Shown here one piece after another: positions 6,040 through 30,946 of a stretch of DNA of 45,380 nucleotides (position 1 is its first letter; each line of letters opens with the position of its first letter). The notes beneath the pieces were generated by a model. That model did no database searches. It worked only from the letters and a program-made list of their open reading frames with translations, and was not told where the DNA came from. The position numbers and the translations under genes were made by a program. The DNA lies in the IMG/VR virus record IMGVR_UViG_3300021478_000006, positions 1-45,380 of that record, one strand, 5' to 3'. The DNA is from a virus.

Positions 6040-7587
6040 TTAATCCGCCTTCTTCTGCGGAGATTTGCCGCCTTTTGACGCCATGCCTCCACTAATTGTC
6101 TGCGGTTCCGGGTCAATCTCAACATTGATGCCCAATTTCTCCGAAATCATCTCCATGGACTCAGGTGTGGCTCTTAAACCCGCCTGTTTGAGCGATACCA
6201 ACATGTCCGCATAACCCTTCGCATCTTCCTCATCAACCCCGCCCCAGACAATCCTAGGCGCATTACCGGGGATTCCATTAATCTTCATGAATGGCTCAAA
6301 CAACTGACGACGCAATGTATTTCCCAACAACTTTTGGTCGAACTGACGTATATCCTCCTTCACATCGGCATGCAAAGTAGCCGTGCCATCCCCGATTCCA
6401 CCACCCTTTTGTTGCTCGCTGCTGGTAGTCTGCCCCACGATAATCTTGGAAATCTCGCGGTTGCATGCGTCAAAGAACATCTTGAATCCCTCGCTCAGAT
6501 TAGTCGAATTGGCCGCAATCAACTCCACTTCATCCTTACGGTCAATGGCCATACCAAACACCTTGGTAGCAGTCTGAATGGCCGATTGCATGAAGTTCAC
6601 CGAATCCACCGATTGCGCGTTGGTCTTGCCCACAATGAACGGTGCCCCAAATCGTTCCATGCTGCGCGACCACCAATCCCTTGCCTGTATGCTCAGGAAT
6701 GCCCAAAACATGATTGAGCGCATCGAGGAGCCAAAGTTATCCCGCACCCCGCCAAACAGCGTCCCACGATGAATGATATGCCTCATTGGGTCAGGCGCAT
6801 ACATGTTCGCCCAACTGAAATCAATAAACCCATTCGGATATGTCCGGTAAAACCGCAAATCCGGTTCCCACGAATCAGGGTTCCAGACCGAGTCCATCGG
6901 TTCCACTGGATTCAATAAACCTGTCGGGGTTTGCACCGGCAATCTAGCTATGCCAGGTTGGTTCGGCAGATTAAACCCACCTTGCGCCAGATACGGTAGC
7001 TTATAACTGATCAACTCCGGCCACACACAAAAGAACTTCTTAAGCCCATACCGAACCCCGTTGCTAAATTGACCGGTATCATTGTCCTCGAATATCTTTT
7101 CATTCGCAATCGCTGGCCATAGGCAGGCATCCATCAAATGGCCAATGCCCATGTCCCAATTCTCGCAGTCCTCAATCATGTATTTGATGGCATCGCAAGC
7201 CACCCCATCACCACCCGCCTTCTTGTCAAAGGGCTGTATCGAATAGGGCGCGCCACAAACCACCATCTTTCGCTTGTTTAACTCTGATTGTATGTGAGCA
7301 CTTCCTAACGTGGTATCACGATACAATGTATAAAGCCGGTAAGTATCACCACGCTCTGCCTGACGTATGGCACTCTGAATATCGGATATACTGACTGTAA
7401 CCGTGGACAGATTTGGCGCAATTCCCCAACCTGACATGCGGCCTTTAATCTGCATTGGAACACTGCCACGCGGGCCAACCTCATCGCTGCCTTGTGGTAT
7501 AATCGGCAACTGTGGCATCTTGGCAGGTAATACGCCACTGAGGACATTCCCCATGGTATTACGCATTCGTTGTAGAATATTCGCCAT
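6040..7587 (-). CDS. portal protein, Mu gp29-like (DUF935)
   Basis: A 515-aa protein, usual length for DUF935 portals. Features: ISDIQSAIRQAERGDTYRLY near residues 67-86; TLGSAHIQSELNKRK; a conserved FLSIQARDWWSRSMERFG; and ADVKEDIRQFDQKLLGNTLR followed by an LFEPFMKING segment, all seen in Mu gp29 homologues. It forms the dodecameric vertex ring through which DNA enters the head. The start ATG overlaps the stop of a small upstream gene (TGATG). Confidence 0.9.
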   Translation of the reverse strand: MANILQRMRNTMGNVLSGVLPAKMPQLPIIPQGSDEVGPRGSVPMQIKGRMSGWGIAPNLSTVTVSISDIQSAIRQAERGDTYRLYTLYRDTTLGSAHIQSELNKRKMVVCGAPYSIQPFDKKAGGDGVACDAIKYMIEDCENWDMGIGHLMDACLWPAIANEKIFEDNDTGQFSNGVRYGLKKFFCVWPELISYKLPYLAQGGFNLPNQPGIARLPVQTPTGLLNPVEPMDSVWNPDSWEPDLRFYRTYPNGFIDFSWANMYAPDPMRHIIHRGTLFGGVRDNFGSSMRSIMFWAFLSIQARDWWSRSMERFGAPFIVGKTNAQSVDSVNFMQSAIQTATKVFGMAIDRKDEVELIAANSTNLSEGFKMFFDACNREISKIIVGQTTSSEQQKGGGIGDGTATLHADVKEDIRQFDQKLLGNTLRRQLFEPFMKINGIPGNAPRIVWGGVDEEDAKGYADMLVSLKQAGLRATPESMEMISEKLGINVEIDPEPQTISGGMASKGGKSPQKKAD

Positions 7588-11034: not shown

Positions 11035-11063
11035 TTGACAAGGCAAACGCAAGGCGGTATGGT
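11035..11063 (+). promoter_or_regulatory. promoter, near-leaderless type
   Basis: TTGACA (11035-11040, perfect), 17-bp spacer, TATGGT (11058-11063), then 7 nt to ATG 11071. This geometry selects 11071 as the start over the upstream ATG at 11059, which lies inside the -10 box. Confidence 0.62.
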
Positions 11064-13990: not shown

Positions 13991-14347
13991 ATGAATGAAC
14001 CTGAAATCAAAAACGCCGTCATCGAATCGGCGGAACTTACCACCGGCGACCGAGGCTTCCTCGATTGCTGGCTAACATTGGACTATGGCGGGAGCGGTCA
14101 AGGCTTTGGAGGCTGGACGCTTTACCTGCCAAAATCATGGACGCATCACAAGCTCGAAAGCCCTGCGGGTCATTGGATATTCCGGTGCATGGAAGTTGCT
14201 GGCGTCGATAAGTTCTCCGATTTGAAAGGCAGAACCATCCGCGTCAAGTCAACCCATTCCGGCGTTCAAGCAATCGGCCATATCGTCAAGGACGACTGGT
14301 TTTGTCCAGAGGAAGATTTTAAAGCCTTGAGAAAGGAATCGAAATGA
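13991..14347 (+). CDS. conserved phage hypothetical protein
   Basis: A 118-aa protein starting at ATG 13991. Residues around 24-45 (LDCWLTLDYGGSGQGFGGW) are a recurring signature in small phage early proteins without known function. The C-terminus (VQAIGHIVKDDWFCPEEDF) also fits. It is coupled by ATGA to the recombinase gene. Confidence 0.62.
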   Translation: MNEPEIKNAVIESAELTTGDRGFLDCWLTLDYGGSGQGFGGWTLYLPKSWTHHKLESPAGHWIFRCMEVAGVDKFSDLKGRTIRVKSTHSGVQAIGHIVKDDWFCPEEDFKALRKESK

Positions 14348-15510
14348 ATGACAACGACGCAGAAATAACCGGAGCAGATGAAACAAGGCTCAGTATCACC
14401 ACGCGAGAGCTTGCGCCGGGCGGTTACGTCAAGCCTACGCCTCAACCTGCATCGGCACGCGCAACCGCTCGCGAGAATCGCGTCATAGAAATCAGCGCGG
14501 CCCTTGAACCTGCCTACGCGAAGGCCGGAACGCTTGAAATAACCGAGGATGAGATTGCCAAGCTCACCGCGCCTTTCGATGATAAGGACGTTGAGAAACG
14601 CCCGCATGATGGATTGTTCTACATCCCGCATATCCTCATATCCGACCGCCTCACACGCATCTTTGGACCCGGTAAATGGACAATGTTGCGCCGATGGGAG
14701 AACATCGAAAACAACACGATATTCGCTGAATGGGTTATGATTGTCCGGGGCGTTTATATCGGCGAATCGGTGGGAGCGCACCAATACCACCCGACCAACC
14801 CGAAACAGAACTACTCAGACGCCCTTGAAAGCACTCGTGGCGAGGCGTTACGGCGCATTGCGGGCAAATATCTATCATGCGGCTCACAGGTCTGGAGTCC
14901 GGCCTATTGCCGGGGTTTAAACGCCCCCAAAGCCTCTACAACAAATCAGAAGGTAGCAGAGCAGCCCCCGACGCCTCCAAAGCCCGTAGCGAGCATCCCA
15001 AGCGCAACGGCGGTGCCTGTAGAGGCTAAAGAGCTATTGCCAAAGATTGCCACGGCGGAAACCCTGAAATGGTTCCTGCAACGTATCGAGGAAACCACAC
15101 TTCAGAAGGAGTTCTGCGAGTATGCTTGCGAGAGGGGAATCATGCTAACATCGGAAACCCTAGAAGACTGGCCTTTGGACAAGGTTCCAACCTCGAAGCG
15201 GGCATTTGCGGCACTTCTTCATGACGTGGAGGAGTTTTGCATGGCCAAGCAGGGGCTTGCGCCCATCAATCAGGATGCCGGCCATCACGCAGCCGAATGG
15301 TATAATTTTCCGATGCCATACGGCAAGAATGCCGGAGTCATTTTGGGCGAATTGGAGAAAAACTACCTGTTCGGTTTGTGGGCAAATATGACCGTGGAAA
15401 CTGAATATAACGGCAAGCCCAAGAAAACCGAAACCATCGCCAAAGATACCAAGCTGCGCCAGATGCTTGATGAAGCTGGAAAACATTACGAGTTCACCAA
15501 GAAAGACTAA
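14344..15510 (+). CDS. Rad52/Mgm101-like single-strand annealing protein with DUF3820-like C-terminus
   Basis: A 388-aa protein. Residues about 95-190 (ILISDRLTRIFGPGKWTMLR, then SDALESTRGEALRRIAGKYL and SQVWSPAY) follow the Mgm101/Rad52 pattern, in which FG-GGW, a beta hairpin and an EA...C.S.AL helix form the DNA-binding core. A Pro/Ala-rich linker (about 200-225) leads to a C-terminal NFPMPYGKNAGVILGELEKN (about 321-340), like DUF3820, a short PFGKxKG motif found near exonucleases. The RecB-type exonuclease lies one gene on, so the two probably form an end-resecting recombination pair used in replication or repair. Confidence 0.68.
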   Translation: MNDNDAEITGADETRLSITTRELAPGGYVKPTPQPASARATARENRVIEISAALEPAYAKAGTLEITEDEIAKLTAPFDDKDVEKRPHDGLFYIPHILISDRLTRIFGPGKWTMLRRWENIENNTIFAEWVMIVRGVYIGESVGAHQYHPTNPKQNYSDALESTRGEALRRIAGKYLSCGSQVWSPAYCRGLNAPKASTTNQKVAEQPPTPPKPVASIPSATAVPVEAKELLPKIATAETLKWFLQRIEETTLQKEFCEYACERGIMLTSETLEDWPLDKVPTSKRAFAALLHDVEEFCMAKQGLAPINQDAGHHAAEWYNFPMPYGKNAGVILGELEKNYLFGLWANMTVETEYNGKPKKTETIAKDTKLRQMLDEAGKHYEFTKKD

Positions 15511-25744: not shown

Positions 25745-26043
25745 AGTCCACAGACCAAATCATCATTGAGAATCTTACAACGGAGCTTGAACAGCTAAAG
25801 AAAGAGCACCTCCACTTATGCTCAAGTTCGGCAGATGACCAAGATATTATAGAACATCTTGAGAAGGAGATTCAGTCTTCGAAAGATGTGCTTACGAATC
25901 TTGCGAATAGCGCGGCATGTCTTTATAGCGATACCACTGATGCCATGGGTGAGAGCTTGGGTGCATCACGGCAGATGTTAAGGGGCGACTTAAGGGCGGC
26001 TAATGAACTGCTCAACCCTGCATACAAGGAACGAAATGAGTGA
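25741..26043 (+). CDS. hypothetical coiled-coil protein
   Basis: A 100-aa protein. The first 60 residues are coiled coil (ENLTTELEQLKKEHLHLCSS; DIIEHLEKEIQSSKDVLTNL). Its stop lies inside the first codons of the next, transposon-split gene. Confidence 0.52.
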   Translation: MKSTDQIIIENLTTELEQLKKEHLHLCSSSADDQDIIEHLEKEIQSSKDVLTNLANSAACLYSDTTDAMGESLGASRQMLRGDLRAANELLNPAYKERNE

Positions 26044-26087
26044 TTGCGGCTGCATCGACAAAATACGGGAGAATTTACTTAAGCATT
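26036..26087 (+). pseudogene. 5' fragment of phage gene split by IS1595 insertion
   Basis: Begins at ATG 26036 (MSDCGCIDKIRENLLKH) and is cut after 26087, the last base of the target duplication. As it stands, the frame runs 10 codons into the transposon and stops at 26117-26119. Joined to 28191 onward it gives a 73-aa protein with an N-terminal CGC and a C-terminal CPFC zinc motif, a common small phage architecture. Confidence 0.88.
26080..26087. repeat. target-site duplication, left copy (TAAGCATT)
   Basis: TAAGCATT directly flanks the left inverted repeat and is repeated exactly at 28183-28190. Eight bases is the duplication length typical of IS1595-family transposition. Confidence 0.93.
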
Positions 26088-26130
26088 GGGAATTATATAC
26101 AAAACAACCCTTTAAATAGCGTCAAAAGCC

Positions 26131-26160
26131 TTGTTTTCAACGAGTTTCGTCCTCTACAGT
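26131..26160 (+). promoter_or_regulatory. candidate promoter of the passenger gene
   Basis: TTGTTT (26131-26136), 18-bp spacer, TACAGT (26155-26160), then 26 nt to ATG 26187, with AGGGG about 8 nt before the ATG. It lies inside the transposon, so the passenger can be expressed wherever the element lands. Confidence 0.4.
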
Positions 26161-26186
26161 TTCCAAAAACCAAAAGGGGCACGAAT

Positions 26187-27038
26187 ATGACCGTTTTAGC
26201 AGGAATAATATGTCCGGATGGAATTGTCATTGCGGCGGATAGTCTGGCGATGGAAACCGCCGCTGGGTCACATTCAGAAATTGATAAAATCGCCGTCATT
26301 AATTTCAGGGTTGACCAAGCCTTGGTAGCCCAATCTGGGTTGACCTCAATCACCAACAGGATTGTAGAATTAATTCAGGAACGGGCAAAAGGCGTCCAAA
26401 TCACGAGTCCGAAAATTGTTACTGATATTGTTGAGGATTCAATACGTGCCGCAAAAGTTAAGCTGGATGACGACCAAAAGAATTATGTGAGAGATTACGG
26501 CGGGGCACACCTCATGCTTGCATTTTATGCAAACGGAAAACCGCAACTTTACACGATAAACATTTACGGAAGCGGCATCGTTGACCCCCCCGAACCCACC
26601 GCAACCCTTGGAGTTGGGTCATATCTGGCAACCTATCTTTTGCGCGAATTGCATACGCCACATTCCGAAATCATACTGGCGATAGGGACGCTCATTTACA
26701 CGATAAATAAAGTGAAAGACACTACTCGCTATTGCGGAGGAAAAACAAATATCAAAGTTTTAACTCCCGTGCCGGTATCAGGATGGCATTCCTTGACCGT
26801 TGGAAAATCGACCAATGTGCCACCCATCACGATACAATTAACGGAGCGGAATTTGTCCAAACTGGACAAGCAAACCAGTGAAGCCAGAAACAAAAAGCTA
26901 AAAAGAATCTTGAATCAGGTGGGCAAAAAAGTGTGGCAACGCCATCTGAAACAAGTGGAAATCGAAGAAAAAGCCCGCGAAAAAGGCGAGATAATAAAGT
27001 TCATTTCTACACTTGACAACCCTAAGGATGTAGGGTAA
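26187..27038 (+). CDS. proteasome-beta-fold Ntn hydrolase (transposon passenger)
   Basis: A 283-aa protein. ATG 26187 has AGGGG upstream and puts Thr directly after Met. Methionine removal would expose Thr1. The sequence TVLAGIICPDGIVIAADS gives Asp17, and SHSEIDKIAVI gives Lys33: the three catalytic residues of proteasome beta subunits and HslV at exact spacing. VAQSGLTSITNRIVELIQ fits the loop and helix that follow. About 230 residues form the fold; the C-terminus (residues about 235-283) is basic and helical (RNKKLKRILNQVGKKVWQRH). Likely a self-compartmented threonine peptidase or amidase. No partner ATPase is encoded nearby; substrate unknown. An upstream start at 26040 would block Thr1 and is unlikely. 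Confidence 0.78.
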   Translation: MTVLAGIICPDGIVIAADSLAMETAAGSHSEIDKIAVINFRVDQALVAQSGLTSITNRIVELIQERAKGVQITSPKIVTDIVEDSIRAAKVKLDDDQKNYVRDYGGAHLMLAFYANGKPQLYTINIYGSGIVDPPEPTATLGVGSYLATYLLRELHTPHSEIILAIGTLIYTINKVKDTTRYCGGKTNIKVLTPVPVSGWHSLTVGKSTNVPPITIQLTERNLSKLDKQTSEARNKKLKRILNQVGKKVWQRHLKQVEIEEKAREKGEIIKFISTLDNPKDVG

Positions 27039-27050: not shown

Positions 27051-27977
27051 ATGAAAAACGCATTTGCCTTTAAAACGCTGGCCGAGTTTCTTGAACACTT
27101 CAAAGATGAGGAAACGTGCCGTGAACATTTCACGGCCATCCGCTTTGCCAATGGCGAATATTGTCCGCATTGCGGGCATGCCAAGATTCACAAGTTTTCA
27201 GATGGCAAGCGGTATCGTTGCGCCTCTTGCAAACAAGACTTTCGTATCCAGACCGGCACAGTGTTTGGGGAGAGCAAGTTGCCTCTAAAAAAGTGGTTCA
27301 TTGCGATTTACCTGCTGTCCACGAGCAACAAGGGCATTTCCTCCGTGCAACTTGCCAAGCAAGTCGGGGTGACGCAAAAGACCGGATGGTTTATGGACCA
27401 TCGGATTCGTTCCGCGATGAAGCAGAACAAGGGGCAGCTTTTCGGCACTATTGAATGCGATGAAACCTACGTTGGCGGCAAGGAGGGGAACAAGCATAAG
27501 GACAAGAAAAACAAAACATCTCGTGGCAGGAACGCTCAAACAAAGAAGCCCGTTTTTGGAATGAGAAGCCGAGACGGTGAAGTGAGGGCAATGGCCGTTC
27601 CGAACTGCAAAGAAAAACTGATTATGGGAATCATCCAAGAGAACGTCGCGCAGGGAACAACGGTTCATACCGACGAAATGCTGTCCTATCGCAACCTGCC
27701 TTTGGCTGGTTTCTCTCATTTTACCATCCGCCACGGATTGAGGGAGTATGCAAGGGGTGAATGTCACACAAACAGCATCGAATCGTTCTGGGCGTTGTTT
27801 AAGCGCGGTTATCATGGTATTTATCATTGGATGAGTCCGAAGCACATGCAGCGTTACGTTGACGAAAGCGTGTTCCGCGTGAATCGCCGGGAAGAACCGA
27901 TGAACAGCATCTTTGCGGAACTGGTGGCGAACATGGCGAAGGGCCAACAACTCCCCTACAAAGAATTGACCGCATGA
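27051..27977 (+). CDS. IS1595-family transposase (ISXO2-like DDE)
   Basis: A 308-aa protein, full length for the family. An N-terminal zinc ribbon has CPHCGH at 38-43 and CASC at 57-60. A helix-turn-helix follows (ISSVQLAKQVGVTQKTGWFM). The catalytic acids lie in TIECDETYVGG (Asp137), TVHTDEMLSY (Asp208) and HTNSIESFWALFKRG (Glu244), the ISXO2-like pattern. No frameshift or stop, so it appears active. It cuts and joins the GGGAATT ends of the element. Confidence 0.93.
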   Translation: MKNAFAFKTLAEFLEHFKDEETCREHFTAIRFANGEYCPHCGHAKIHKFSDGKRYRCASCKQDFRIQTGTVFGESKLPLKKWFIAIYLLSTSNKGISSVQLAKQVGVTQKTGWFMDHRIRSAMKQNKGQLFGTIECDETYVGGKEGNKHKDKKNKTSRGRNAQTKKPVFGMRSRDGEVRAMAVPNCKEKLIMGIIQENVAQGTTVHTDEMLSYRNLPLAGFSHFTIRHGLREYARGECHTNSIESFWALFKRGYHGIYHWMSPKHMQRYVDESVFRVNRREEPMNSIFAELVANMAKGQQLPYKELTA

Positions 27978-28357: not shown

Positions 28358-28668
28358 AAACCTTATATGATTATATCAAAGAAAAGGCCACACTGGAGGG
28401 CAACTCATCGCGAGATTGGCAGGCATCTAATCCCGGTTGTGAACAACAGCATTACCGGGCTGGCGCATCTAATTGTTGCCTTGAGATATTAGATTGGATG
28501 GAACGAAATCCAGAGACGGAGAATGAGCGTGTTGCAAGACTCGTTACGCAAACGCACATTGATAGCTACAGGCAGGGGCGTGAATCAGTATTTAAGGAGC
28601 TTGAGAGGTTCTCCAAAAGCTATGGGGCTGACTCGAATCCACCGTCACCTGCCACGCGCCAAGATTAG
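28354..28668 (+). CDS. hypothetical protein, end of early operon
   Basis: A 104-aa protein starting at ATG 28354. Helical (TLYDYIKEKATLEGNSSRDW; TQTHIDSYRQGRESVFKELE) with a CC pair in the middle. Its 3' end overlaps the convergent lipoprotein gene by 77 bases. No terminator is seen here. Function unknown. Confidence 0.55.
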   Translation: MKTLYDYIKEKATLEGNSSRDWQASNPGCEQQHYRAGASNCCLEILDWMERNPETENERVARLVTQTHIDSYRQGRESVFKELERFSKSYGADSNPPSPATRQD

Positions 28669-29311
28669 TAATTGCCGCCACATTGCTCCATGCCACGAGG
28701 TCTTGGCTCTGCTGTATCACTAGCGGCGCATTGGCCCAACCGGCCAGTTGCAGCGTGCCGTCGTTCATTTGGAACAAACCGATTGAGGCGCAGTTTGTTG
28801 GTGTAAAAATGTAATCTGATACCGTCAGCGTTCCGCCAATCGCGGTTTCTCGATAAGTATTCGTCGTATCAATCTCGTTTCCATTCTCATCGATGTAGCT
28901 GGAAATCAAGTAGGGCGGCGGCCAGTTGATTAATGTTCTAACCTCGATGAGGGTTGGCACATTGGTTGGAACATTTACTTGGAACAAATTGGTGTAAGGA
29001 AATGTCGCTAATAACGATAGAGATTGTCCGGTATTGGCAGAATACACATGAATGCCATCAGCAGGCCCAGAGCCGGTGTCGAAGGTAAGGCTTATGGGAA
29101 TCTTAGGAGGGGTCAAAACAACGCTCAGACGCCTCGCTACGGGGAGATTCGCACCGGATTGGGTCTGTACCGGGTTACCGGGCCAGATTGCGCTATAAGG
29201 CGATTTAGGCGGTGTCGTCTTGCATGAGGCCAAGGCGAAAAGGGCAATGCAAAATACCCCTGCGGCAATGTAGATTGGTGCAACATCCCGAATGACAGGC
29301 TTTAGGGCCAT
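28592..29311 (-). CDS. lipoprotein with Verrucomicrobia-like C-terminal domain
   Basis: A 239-aa protein. Residues 12-31 form a signal segment ending in the lipobox LASC (Cys about 30), so it should be lipid-anchored. The C-terminal 55 residues (LQLAGWANAPLVIQQSQDLV then AWSNVAAITNLG) resemble modules repeated in Verrucomicrobia surface proteins, where a strand and DLxxW pattern is common. It is a single minus-strand gene between two plus-strand units, with an operator-like palindrome before its start. It may alter the host surface or block superinfection; this is speculation. Confidence 0.62.
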   Translation of the reverse strand: MALKPVIRDVAPIYIAAGVFCIALFALASCKTTPPKSPYSAIWPGNPVQTQSGANLPVARRLSVVLTPPKIPISLTFDTGSGPADGIHVYSANTGQSLSLLATFPYTNLFQVNVPTNVPTLIEVRTLINWPPPYLISSYIDENGNEIDTTNTYRETAIGGTLTVSDYIFTPTNCASIGLFQMNDGTLQLAGWANAPLVIQQSQDLVAWSNVAAITNLGAWQVTVDSSQPHSFWRTSQAP

Positions 29312-29334: not shown

Positions 29335-29365
29335 AATACTATGCAGAATTGCTGACTGAAAGTAG

Positions 29366-29394
29366 TTGACAACCTTTTGGCTAAATCGTAAAGT
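29366..29394 (+). promoter_or_regulatory. strong promoter of leader RNA and small operon
   Basis: TTGACA (29366-29371, perfect), 17-bp spacer, TAAAGT (29389-29394). Expected start near 29401. Unlike most promoters in this genome it precedes a 100-base leader. Confidence 0.68.
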
Positions 29395-29400
29395 CATTTC

Positions 29401-29491
29401 GTTCGGTGCATTCTGGAAGATGCGTTCGGATTGAATTTAGGTTAGCGTCTCAATCCCCCTCATTCTTCCAGATGAGGGGTTCTTTTTATTT
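29401..29491 (+). ncRNA. structured leader or small RNA ending in a terminator
   Basis: About 90 nt between the promoter and the terminator. TCTGGAAGA at 29412-29420 is fully complementary to TCTTCCAGA at 29464-29472, which is the complete terminator loop plus one stem base. This would form a pseudoknot or an alternative structure that opens the terminator stem. It fits either a small stable RNA or an attenuator controlling the downstream genes. No known family recognised. Confidence 0.55.
29456..29491 (+). terminator. intrinsic terminator in leader
   Basis: Stem CCCCTCAT (29456-29463) and ATGAGGGG (29472-29479), loop TCTTCCAG, then TTCTTTTTATTT. Placed before the first gene of its unit, it would stop most transcription unless overridden. 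Confidence 0.75.
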
Positions 29492-29501
29492 ACTCGTATC
29501 A

Positions 29502-29711
29502 ATGAAGGAAATTAGTCGTCAACGGCGGTATCAGATTGAGCATAAAAAGCTCGGATTGTGCGTTCAATGCTCAAGTAATGCGGTCAACAACGGATTATGC
29601 CGAAAGCATCTAAAACGCGCACGGATTGATACGAGAAATTATCACCGCAAACGATTCGGCTGGAAACCAAAGCGCAAGAATGGCATGGGTCGGCCCATCC
29701 TTTACAAATAA
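29502..29711 (+). CDS. small basic Cys protein
   Basis: A 69-aa protein. CVQCSSNAVNNGLCRKHLKR gives a CxxC...CxxxH zinc site; the rest is basic (RFGWKPKRKNGMGR). ATG 29502 is chosen; an upstream GTG in frame would read through the terminator stem. No clear ribosome site. Probably a nucleic-acid-binding protein, perhaps acting on its leader. Confidence 0.55.
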   Translation: MKEISRQRRYQIEHKKLGLCVQCSSNAVNNGLCRKHLKRARIDTRNYHRKRFGWKPKRKNGMGRPILYK

Positions 29712-29731
29712 CCCCCGCTAGGAGATGAGAG

Positions 29732-29944
29732 ATGATTAACATAAACGAGCTTGTGCCAGTCGACAGTGTCAAGGCAGTTCAAGTCATCATCACGGCCAAT
29801 CAACGGCGCGGTAAAGGAACTGCTGATGATATTTGCCGCGTGGTTCATCAGATATGGACGATGGACGGTCAGCTTATATTTGAGATTGACCCTTGTCCTG
29901 ATTGTAAATCAGAAACCAACCAATCGAAAGGAGGGGTAGGATGA
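29732..29944 (+). CDS. hypothetical small protein
   Basis: A 70-aa protein with AGGAGATGAG upstream. Contains AVQVIITANQRRGKGTADDI and a CPDC pair near the end. The frame RRGKGTADDICRVVHQIWT followed by GQLIFEIDPCPDC suggests a small alpha/beta domain of unknown role. Confidence 0.52.
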   Translation: MININELVPVDSVKAVQVIITANQRRGKGTADDICRVVHQIWTMDGQLIFEIDPCPDCKSETNQSKGGVG

Positions 29945-30126
29945 AACTAACAAACAAATCACTTAATAGACGCATTGAACATTTGAAGTTCTGCATTAAC
30001 AAACATCGGAAAATAGCTGGTCAATGCTTAAAACGCTCTACTAGAACGGCGCATTTACAACAGGCGAATGAGGCAATAATATTGCTCAAGCAACTGCAAC
30101 ATGCCAACCCCCTGAACCAAGCTTGA
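29941..30126 (+). CDS. hypothetical small basic protein
   Basis: A 61-aa basic helical protein (NKSLNRRIEHLKFCINKHRK then RTAHLQQANEAIILLKQLQ). ATGA-coupled to the previous gene. Function unknown. Confidence 0.5.
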   Translation: MKLTNKSLNRRIEHLKFCINKHRKIAGQCLKRSTRTAHLQQANEAIILLKQLQHANPLNQA

Positions 30127-30146
30127 GTCAAGGGGAAAAGACCGTA

Positions 30147-30174
30147 TTGAAATATTGCGCTGGTGTGCTAATAT
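30147..30174 (+). promoter_or_regulatory. promoter, leaderless type
   Basis: TTGAAA (30147-30152), 16-bp spacer, TAATAT (30169-30174), then exactly 6 nt to ATG 30181. This supports the short membrane gene that follows. Confidence 0.5.
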
Positions 30175-30180
30175 TCCAGA

Positions 30181-30333
30181 ATGATTATCGAAGTTTTCTT
30201 CTGGATATTGTGGGGACTTTGCATCCTTGGGGTCATTGTGCCAATAAACGCAACATTCCAACGCGGTTGTGGTATCGTGCTTCTGGTACTTATTGGCATC
30301 CTCGGATACTGGCATCATAACCCGCTACATTAG
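30181..30333 (+). CDS. 50-aa two-helix membrane protein
   Basis: ATG 30181 to TAG 30331-30333. Two hydrophobic helices (FFWILWGLCILGVIVPI and GIVLLVLIGILGYW) are joined by a short NATFQRGC loop. Preceded by a promoter whose -10 ends 6 nt before the ATG. Size and topology fit a small holin-like or other inner-membrane protein. It was preferred over an overlapping 65-codon frame (TTG 30123 to 30320) that has no recognisable protein features. Confidence 0.55.
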   Translation: MIIEVFFWILWGLCILGVIVPINATFQRGCGIVLLVLIGILGYWHHNPLH

Positions 30334-30336
30334 CGC

Positions 30337-30894
30337 GTGAACTCTTTCGAGCAACAATACACTTTTCTGACGTTGAGGATGGATGTCCTCTTGGCAGAAT
30401 TAAAAGCCCTGCATCATCAAGAGGCGGAAAACAGGGATATTAAACACAGCCTCAAGGAACTATTAAAGATTATGACAAAAGTTGAAACAATTCTTGCCAA
30501 AACTTCCACGGACGTTGATACACTGATTGCGGTCGCATCTGGCACAACGGCCATCTCAGCACCCGCCGATGTGATTGCGGCTCAGGCATTGTCCGATAAA
30601 GTCGCTGCGGCCATCGGAAACACGCCAGTAATCGTTCTGACAGCGAAATCCAGTGCATTGCCGTTGACCGGCCCTTCGCCATTGAGCGTCCAATTCTCCA
30701 GCAAAGGGTCTGCCAACCCGGATGGCTCTGCCCTCGCGTTCTCTTGGACATTTGGTGACAATAGCGCGGTTGATACCACGCCTTCGCCCATTCACGTTTA
30801 CTCTGCTCCCGGCACCTATTCGGCCACTCTCGTAGTGACGAATCTTGCTGGTCAGCAGGCCACGGCCACGGTCATCACGATTGTAGCCTCGTAG
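30337..30894 (+). CDS. PKD-domain protein with helical N-terminus
   Basis: A 185-aa protein from GTG 30337. Residues about 1-65 are helical and charged (QQYTFLTLRMDVLLAELKAL; IKHSLKELLKIMTKVETILA). Residues about 98-183 are a PKD (Ig-like) domain with the signature FSWTFGDNS, then PIHVYSAPGTYSATLVVTN. PKD domains mediate carbohydrate or protein contact at cell or virion surfaces. No signal peptide is present, so it may be a virion or lysis-released protein. It ends just before a strong terminator. Confidence 0.75.
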   Translation: MNSFEQQYTFLTLRMDVLLAELKALHHQEAENRDIKHSLKELLKIMTKVETILAKTSTDVDTLIAVASGTTAISAPADVIAAQALSDKVAAAIGNTPVIVLTAKSSALPLTGPSPLSVQFSSKGSANPDGSALAFSWTFGDNSAVDTTPSPIHVYSAPGTYSATLVVTNLAGQQATATVITIVAS

Positions 30895-30914
30895 TCCTTA
30901 GCTGAGGAACCAAG

Positions 30915-30946
30915 CCCGTCCTGATTTTATTCAGGGCGGGTTTTTT
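30915..30946 (+). terminator. strong intrinsic terminator
   Basis: Stem CCCGTCCTGA (30915-30924) and TCAGGGCGGG (30931-30940, one U-G pair), loop TTTTAT, then six T. It ends the plus-strand unit. The stop codon of the convergent minus-strand gene lies in the T-run. Confidence 0.88.

Follow-up and report, generated by a model that had tools for sequence, protein, structure and literature searches.

The locus described here raises the question whether the short leader between a phage promoter and a block of small genes gives rise to an RNA that controls transcription of these genes. The window, that is the whole stretch of DNA that was analysed, is one virus record of 45,380 bases. The leader is located between a putative lipoprotein gene that points leftward and a block of small genes at 29502-30894 that runs rightward. 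The initial annotation had described a perfect TTGACA promoter, an intrinsic terminator ahead of any gene and, in the leader, a sequence complementary over nine bases to the entire terminator loop and one base of the stem. Judged from its sequence and from that of a syntenic relative, the leader is very likely a genuine RNA control element, and it may well act as an attenuator.

Promoter and leader parts in the window

The following features surround and compose the leader:

28592-29311 (-): putative lipoprotein gene, divergent; synteny anchor with the relative G001
29366-29394 (+): sigma-70-type promoter TTGACA-17-TAAAGT, with TTGACA at 29366-29371, a 17-nt spacer and TAAAGT at 29389-29394
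29408-29423 (+): hairpin 1, GCATT-CTGGAA-GATGC, a 5-bp stem with a hexaloop, starting 14 nt past the -10 box
29412-29420 (+): 5' arm of the long-range helix, TCTGGAAGA, starting 18 nt after the -10 box
29428-29456 (+): weak hairpin GGATTGA...TCAATCC in the middle of the leader, lying inside the long-range helix
29456-29479 (+): intrinsic terminator hairpin, CCCCTCATT-CTTCCA-GATGAGGGG, -13.7 kcal/mol
29464-29472 (+): 3' arm of the long-range helix, TCTTCCAGA, starting 70 nt after the -10 box and spanning the terminator loop
29480-29491 (+): U-rich tract TTCTTTTTATTT, the expected 3' end of an RNA of about 90 nt

The promoter reaches a consensus score of 10/12, with a perfect -35 box and four of six matching positions in the -10 box. 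The TTGACA at 29366-29371 is thus as perfect as had been claimed, and the site is probably a real plus-strand phage promoter. The terminator is also present ahead of any gene, in the window only, and its stem comprises nine pairs including one G-U, closed by the hexaloop CTTCCA and followed by the tail TTCTTTTTATTT. Upstream of it, no start codon is accompanied by a recognisable ribosome site. The complementarity held in its length but not in its exact extent: TCTGGAAGA and TCTTCCAGA are exact nine-base complements, each with a single occurrence in the 45-kb window, and the paired stretch covers the whole hexaloop (29465-29470), yet it takes in three stem bases (29464, 29471, 29472) instead of one. 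A feature absent from the earlier description is that the 5' arm sits in hairpin 1. Since the 5' arm lies in a hairpin of its own, the two hexaloops CUGGAA and CUUCCA are mutually complementary.

The weight of this complementarity depends on how it is counted. Among dinucleotide shuffles, 0.17% gave at least nine Watson-Crick pairs to the loop region and 0.4% gave them to the whole terminator; when G-U pairs are counted these rates become 2% and 15%, respectively. The complementarity was found by eye across 45 kb, and therefore the window alone is not convincing; taken alone, its complementarity is suggestive. The whole window leader is not unusually stable compared to shuffles (z -1.3).

The same geometry in a relative

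The sole close relative that came out of all scans is G001 (IMGVR_UViG_3300012944_000060, 24,251 bases), which was found by a terminase-alignment scan of IMG/VR and is 66% identical in the terminase and 76% in the portal protein. The lipoprotein gene is common to both phages and has the same surroundings in each (43% over 245 aa). At the syntenic site G001 carries identical promoter hexamers with a 17-nt spacer (L146 4085-4113), and between -20 and +40 relative to the TTGACA start 43 of 60 bases are identical. This conserved promoter block extends from about 29355 to 29403 in the window. On both of its flanks identity is 2-6 of 20 bases, which is about the level of unrelated DNA. The block can be written as TTGACA-N-CCTTT-N-G-N-C-N-AAA-N-CGTAAAGTCA. 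Among the 146 fetched loci, full matches were limited to the window and G001, and a pattern scan did not find the block in 286 sampled genomes of the class. A second good promoter-like site, TTGACA-17-TATGGT, is present in the window at 11035-11063 (+) near the start of the early block, and the minus strand of G001 has these same hexamers with an 18-nt spacer at 7044.

Directly past the promoter, the identity of the G001 leader with the window falls to chance. The two arm positions, with first bases 18 and 70 nt past the -10 box, had been fixed from the window before the G001 leader was inspected. The longest perfect helix in the G001 leader, GTGGTACGGC/GCCGTACCAC with 10 bp, has its arms at offsets of 18 and 72 from the -10 box, compared to 18 and 70 for the longest helix in the window leader. 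When the helix pairs are aligned from the outer end and read by hand, six of nine carry changes in both partners, three are the same in the two phages, and no pair is lost. Shuffling the G001 leader gave a helix of 9 bp or longer no more than 3 nt away from these offsets in 0-1 of 4000 cases, while in real sequence (window, G001 and fetched loci) 4-6e-4 of the positions have one; the chance of such a match in G001 is about 5e-4 or less. Hairpin 1 has a counterpart as well: TGCCG-GTGGTA-CGGCA, again with a 5-bp stem and a 6-nt loop, is located 13 nt after the -10 box of G001, and the 5' arm contains its loop. Hairpins with a 5-bp stem and a hexaloop that has a 9-nt complement further downstream are found at about 1e-5 of the positions in all fetched sequence, and with a 10/12 promoter 12-13 nt upstream such hairpins occur at the window and G001 sites only.

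Conservation in relatives had been proposed as a check on the complementarity, and in one syntenic relative, G001, the complementarity is indeed kept with compensatory changes. We read position and pairing that are kept without the letters as the trace of selection on RNA structure. With n=2 sequences, it is highly likely that a real, conserved and structured leader RNA follows the promoter. A leader that preserves its pairing by compensatory change, although its letters and the downstream genes are replaced, would be a clear example of selection acting on RNA shape alone.

The 3' end of the two leaders is less alike. In G001 a very stable hairpin is followed only by UUUAUGAUUAU, and a terminator scan reports none of canonical form there. 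The promoter, hairpin 1 and the long-range complementarity are conserved, and a canonical intrinsic terminator is seen in the window alone. No 7-bp helix matching the middle hairpin was found in the G001 leader, and the comparison gives this hairpin no support. The G001 leader (L146 4120-4209) as a whole is very stable (z -4.05), and it contains a long inverted repeat that folds on both strands.

Attenuation and its alternatives

In both phages the competing folds are near in energy, with -24.1 vs -21.2 kcal/mol in the window and -41.2 vs -40.8 kcal/mol in G001. Folding of the growing chain follows the same order in both: hairpin 1 comes first, the long-range helix takes over once the 3' arm emerges and is the best fold at intermediate chain lengths, and hairpin 1 together with the 3' hairpin is the best fold of the full leader. 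Transient long-range pairing that later dissolves is also seen in 10-16% of shuffles, and bistability by itself therefore proves nothing. Once the leader has reached full length, neither the first loop nor its complement is paired in the fold of either phage, and thus a kissing interaction is possible, either instead of the long-range helix or en route to it.

The terminator is non-canonical in G001 and only two sequences are at hand; for this reason the mechanism is one that we infer, including transcription, the efficiency of termination, the direction of the switch and its trigger. RNA polymerase would start near 29401 at the conserved promoter, and hairpin 1 would fold at once and present its hexaloop, which is complementary to the terminator loop made about 50 nt later. 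The two loops might then kiss with both hairpins standing, or they might open into the long-range helix that competes with the terminator. The winning fold would set the share of transcripts that end near 29491, as an RNA of about 90 nt, versus those that continue into the operon at 29502-30894. The long-range helix covaries and competes in energy with the terminator; pairing of the loops without full exclusion is possible too, and the G001 terminator is non-canonical. We estimate a probability of roughly 0.5 that the structured leader, modelled in this way, is an attenuator of the small operon.

In attenuators and the expression platforms of riboswitches, an intrinsic terminator ahead of the first gene faces competition from an antiterminator helix. 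Unlike in these systems, no known ligand domain or leader peptide was recognised in the window leader, and the terminator is not conserved in G001. The put site of HK022 is a structured phage leader near a promoter, whose local hairpins modify the polymerase. The window leader is similarly structured and close to a phage promoter, and a put-like antiterminator had been among the first suggestions. However, no Rfam family reached its gathering score for the window or the G001 leader, so the suggestion found no support, and to our knowledge no long-range loop pairing is known in put RNA. The lambda pR'-tR' leader (6S RNA) shows the order of promoter, short leader, terminator and genes. Here a small accessory block lies downstream instead of the late operon, the late operon is on the other strand and no Q-like gene was recognised.

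Instead of a switch, the short terminated RNA itself might be the product. It would act in trans, similar to IsrK or the P4 CI RNA, and pair with the readthrough transcript from the promoter of its own or of a co-infecting phage; the paired loops would set the specificity and may diverge fast with the geometry kept. The arrangement of promoter, short leader, terminator and readthrough operon would suit such an RNA, as would the rapid divergence of the paired sequence beside a conserved promoter and the exchange of downstream genes between the window and G001. The complementary words point the same way, as they are found inside this leader only; at full length they occur nowhere else in either phage. 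Likewise, complementarity to the own readthrough transcript is found inside the leader only, with no second copy beyond the terminator. Since the words are confined to the leader, a cis or self-directed role is favoured over other targets. In Gifsy-1, the short IsrK RNA and an mRNA made by readthrough of its terminator are two isoforms that share one promoter, and two folds of near-equal energy compete (PMC4825925). However, G001 without a canonical terminator would yield no defined short RNA, and no integrase or repressor was recognised among the scanned proteins, which leaves an immunity role unsupported. We regard a trans-acting RNA as a tentative possibility. If the short RNA does act in trans, it would represent RNA-based self-recognition outside the enterobacterial examples IsrK and P4 CI.

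By analogy, IsrK and P4 CI seem to be the best functional parallels of the window leader. With IsrK the leader has in common a phage promoter, a predicted short RNA ended by a terminator, presumed readthrough into an operon and two alternative folds of near-equal energy via long-range complementarity. The complement in IsrK is located past its terminator in orf45 (about 30 nt), whereas here it lies within the terminator loop and is 9 nt long. Moreover, the two have no sequence or Rfam relation, and trans action of the window leader is hypothetical. Pairing of the P4 CI RNA with a complementary leader sequence controls premature termination (PMC4825925), and the likeness here is that of a short phage leader RNA pairing with leader sequence (seqA-seqC). 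The P4 CI RNA, however, arises by processing of an untranslated transcript, and both seqA and seqC are its targets, while the window leader has one complementary pair.

It might also be that the loops form a kissing-loop or pseudoknot that serves as a structural or protein-binding module, or that masks the first start codon, rather than a termination switch. In either phage the best fold with hairpins leaves the first loop and its complement free to pair as a pseudoknot, and the 3' hairpin of G001 ends 3 nt before the start codon of its HNH gene. The 3' partner, however, is a terminal loop in the window and an internal loop in G001, and the window start codon follows 22 nt past the hairpin. 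Such a module is rather unlikely.

We consider it slightly less likely still that chance has brought together a promoter, a terminator-like hairpin and a coincidental nine-base complement, with a second coincidence in G001. The window alone would leave room for this, with rates of 0.2-0.4% (2-15% with G-U pairs) after a search by eye of 45 kb, and the sequences number only two. G001, however, is an independent test in which the arm positions were preset, and here the value is about 5e-4 or less.

Far less probable is an assignment of the structure to the opposite strand, as the 5' UTR of the divergent lipoprotein gene. In G001 a mere 9 nt or so separate the leftward lipoprotein start from the promoter, and an inverted repeat can fold on both strands; but no minus-strand promoter scoring at least 9/12 was found nearby, and the conserved block is the plus-strand promoter.

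An RNA anti-CRISPR whose hairpin imitates a CRISPR repeat is hardly credible: GTCTCAATCCCC matches the 5' end of the CRISPR-DR8 consensus and viral solitary repeat units are often found directly behind a promoter (PMC10651486), but the CRISPR-DR8 match at 29447-29491 (+) has 20.2 bits against a gathering score of 39 (E 0.033), the G001 leader has no repeat-like sequence, and the loop complementarity is left unexplained. Because the G001 leader gives an unrelated chance match of similar E-value (E 0.052), we take the CRISPR-DR8 resemblance to be at chance level. The likeness to the Racr solitary repeat units (PMC10651486) consists in a small phage RNA with a hairpin behind a strong promoter; the difference is that the repeat similarity is sub-threshold in the window and absent in G001.

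Downstream genes, host and genome

In the attenuator reading, the leader would control the following block:

29502-29711 (+): first gene, small basic zinc-knuckle-like protein, 69 aa
29732-29944 (+): second operon gene, phrog_14088 family
29941-30126 (+): third small operon gene, no family
30337-30894 (+): last operon gene, PKD-domain protein
30912-30943 (+): operon-end terminator between convergent gene blocks

The first gene after the G001 leader encodes an HNH endonuclease (phrog_119, 1.7e-9) that is unrelated to the window zinc protein, and the other genes of the window block have no match in the G001 block. Weak relatives of the zinc protein are found in two viral contigs (L002, L003), in which no such leader was found. 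The initial annotation had considered the zinc protein as the ligand. This idea fits poorly with G001, where the promoter and the leader geometry stay in front of an HNH gene. Since the first gene differs between the phages and the relatives of the zinc protein come without the leader, the zinc protein is unlikely to be the ligand, and the leader seems to be a property of the site. It would point to a control site for phage accessory genes. It is conceivable, though doubtful, that the leader represents a new type of phage RNA regulator. In such a family a 5' hexaloop hairpin would be able to pair with the loop of the terminator behind it, the pairing letters would be free while the geometry is fixed, and phage-specific self-recognition would control an exchangeable accessory block.

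Shine-Dalgarno sequences are absent before most genes of this phage, and the missing one before the first gene was for this reason dropped as a sign of regulation. Strong Shine-Dalgarno sites precede the small genes at 29732 and 29941.

Akkermansia phages have the terminases nearest to that of the window (27-29%), and the best prophage relatives of the window come from genomes of Verrucomicrobiota, none of them with more than 34% identity in the terminase alignment. Based on these relationships, the host is probably a Verrucomicrobiota bacterium. We know of no regulatory RNAs described for Verrucomicrobiota phages. The leader DNA pattern had no match in IMG/VR, single-protein scans with the terminase, the lipoprotein and the phrog_14088 protein returned no relatives, and the portal protein had no relative in genome contigs. 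Alignment of the lipoprotein recovered G001 only from IMG/VR, and three weak partial matches within larger open frames from 141 genomes. INPHARED contained no DNA match and no match to the zinc protein.

Several further genes of the window were observed. The frame at 26040-27038 (+) has a Pfam match (PF00227, E 6e-13) to the proteasome subunit family, which is unusual for a phage, and it had no PHROG match and no PDB sequence match. Directly behind it, at 27051-27977 (+), lies a transposase gene of the IS1595/ISXO2 type (PF12762, E 1.5e-44), for which the corresponding part of G001 has no homolog. At 14344-15510 (+) the window encodes a recombination protein of the Mgm101 type (PF06420, E 5e-19); an HNH gene and an exonuclease come next, and the three make up a phage recombination module.
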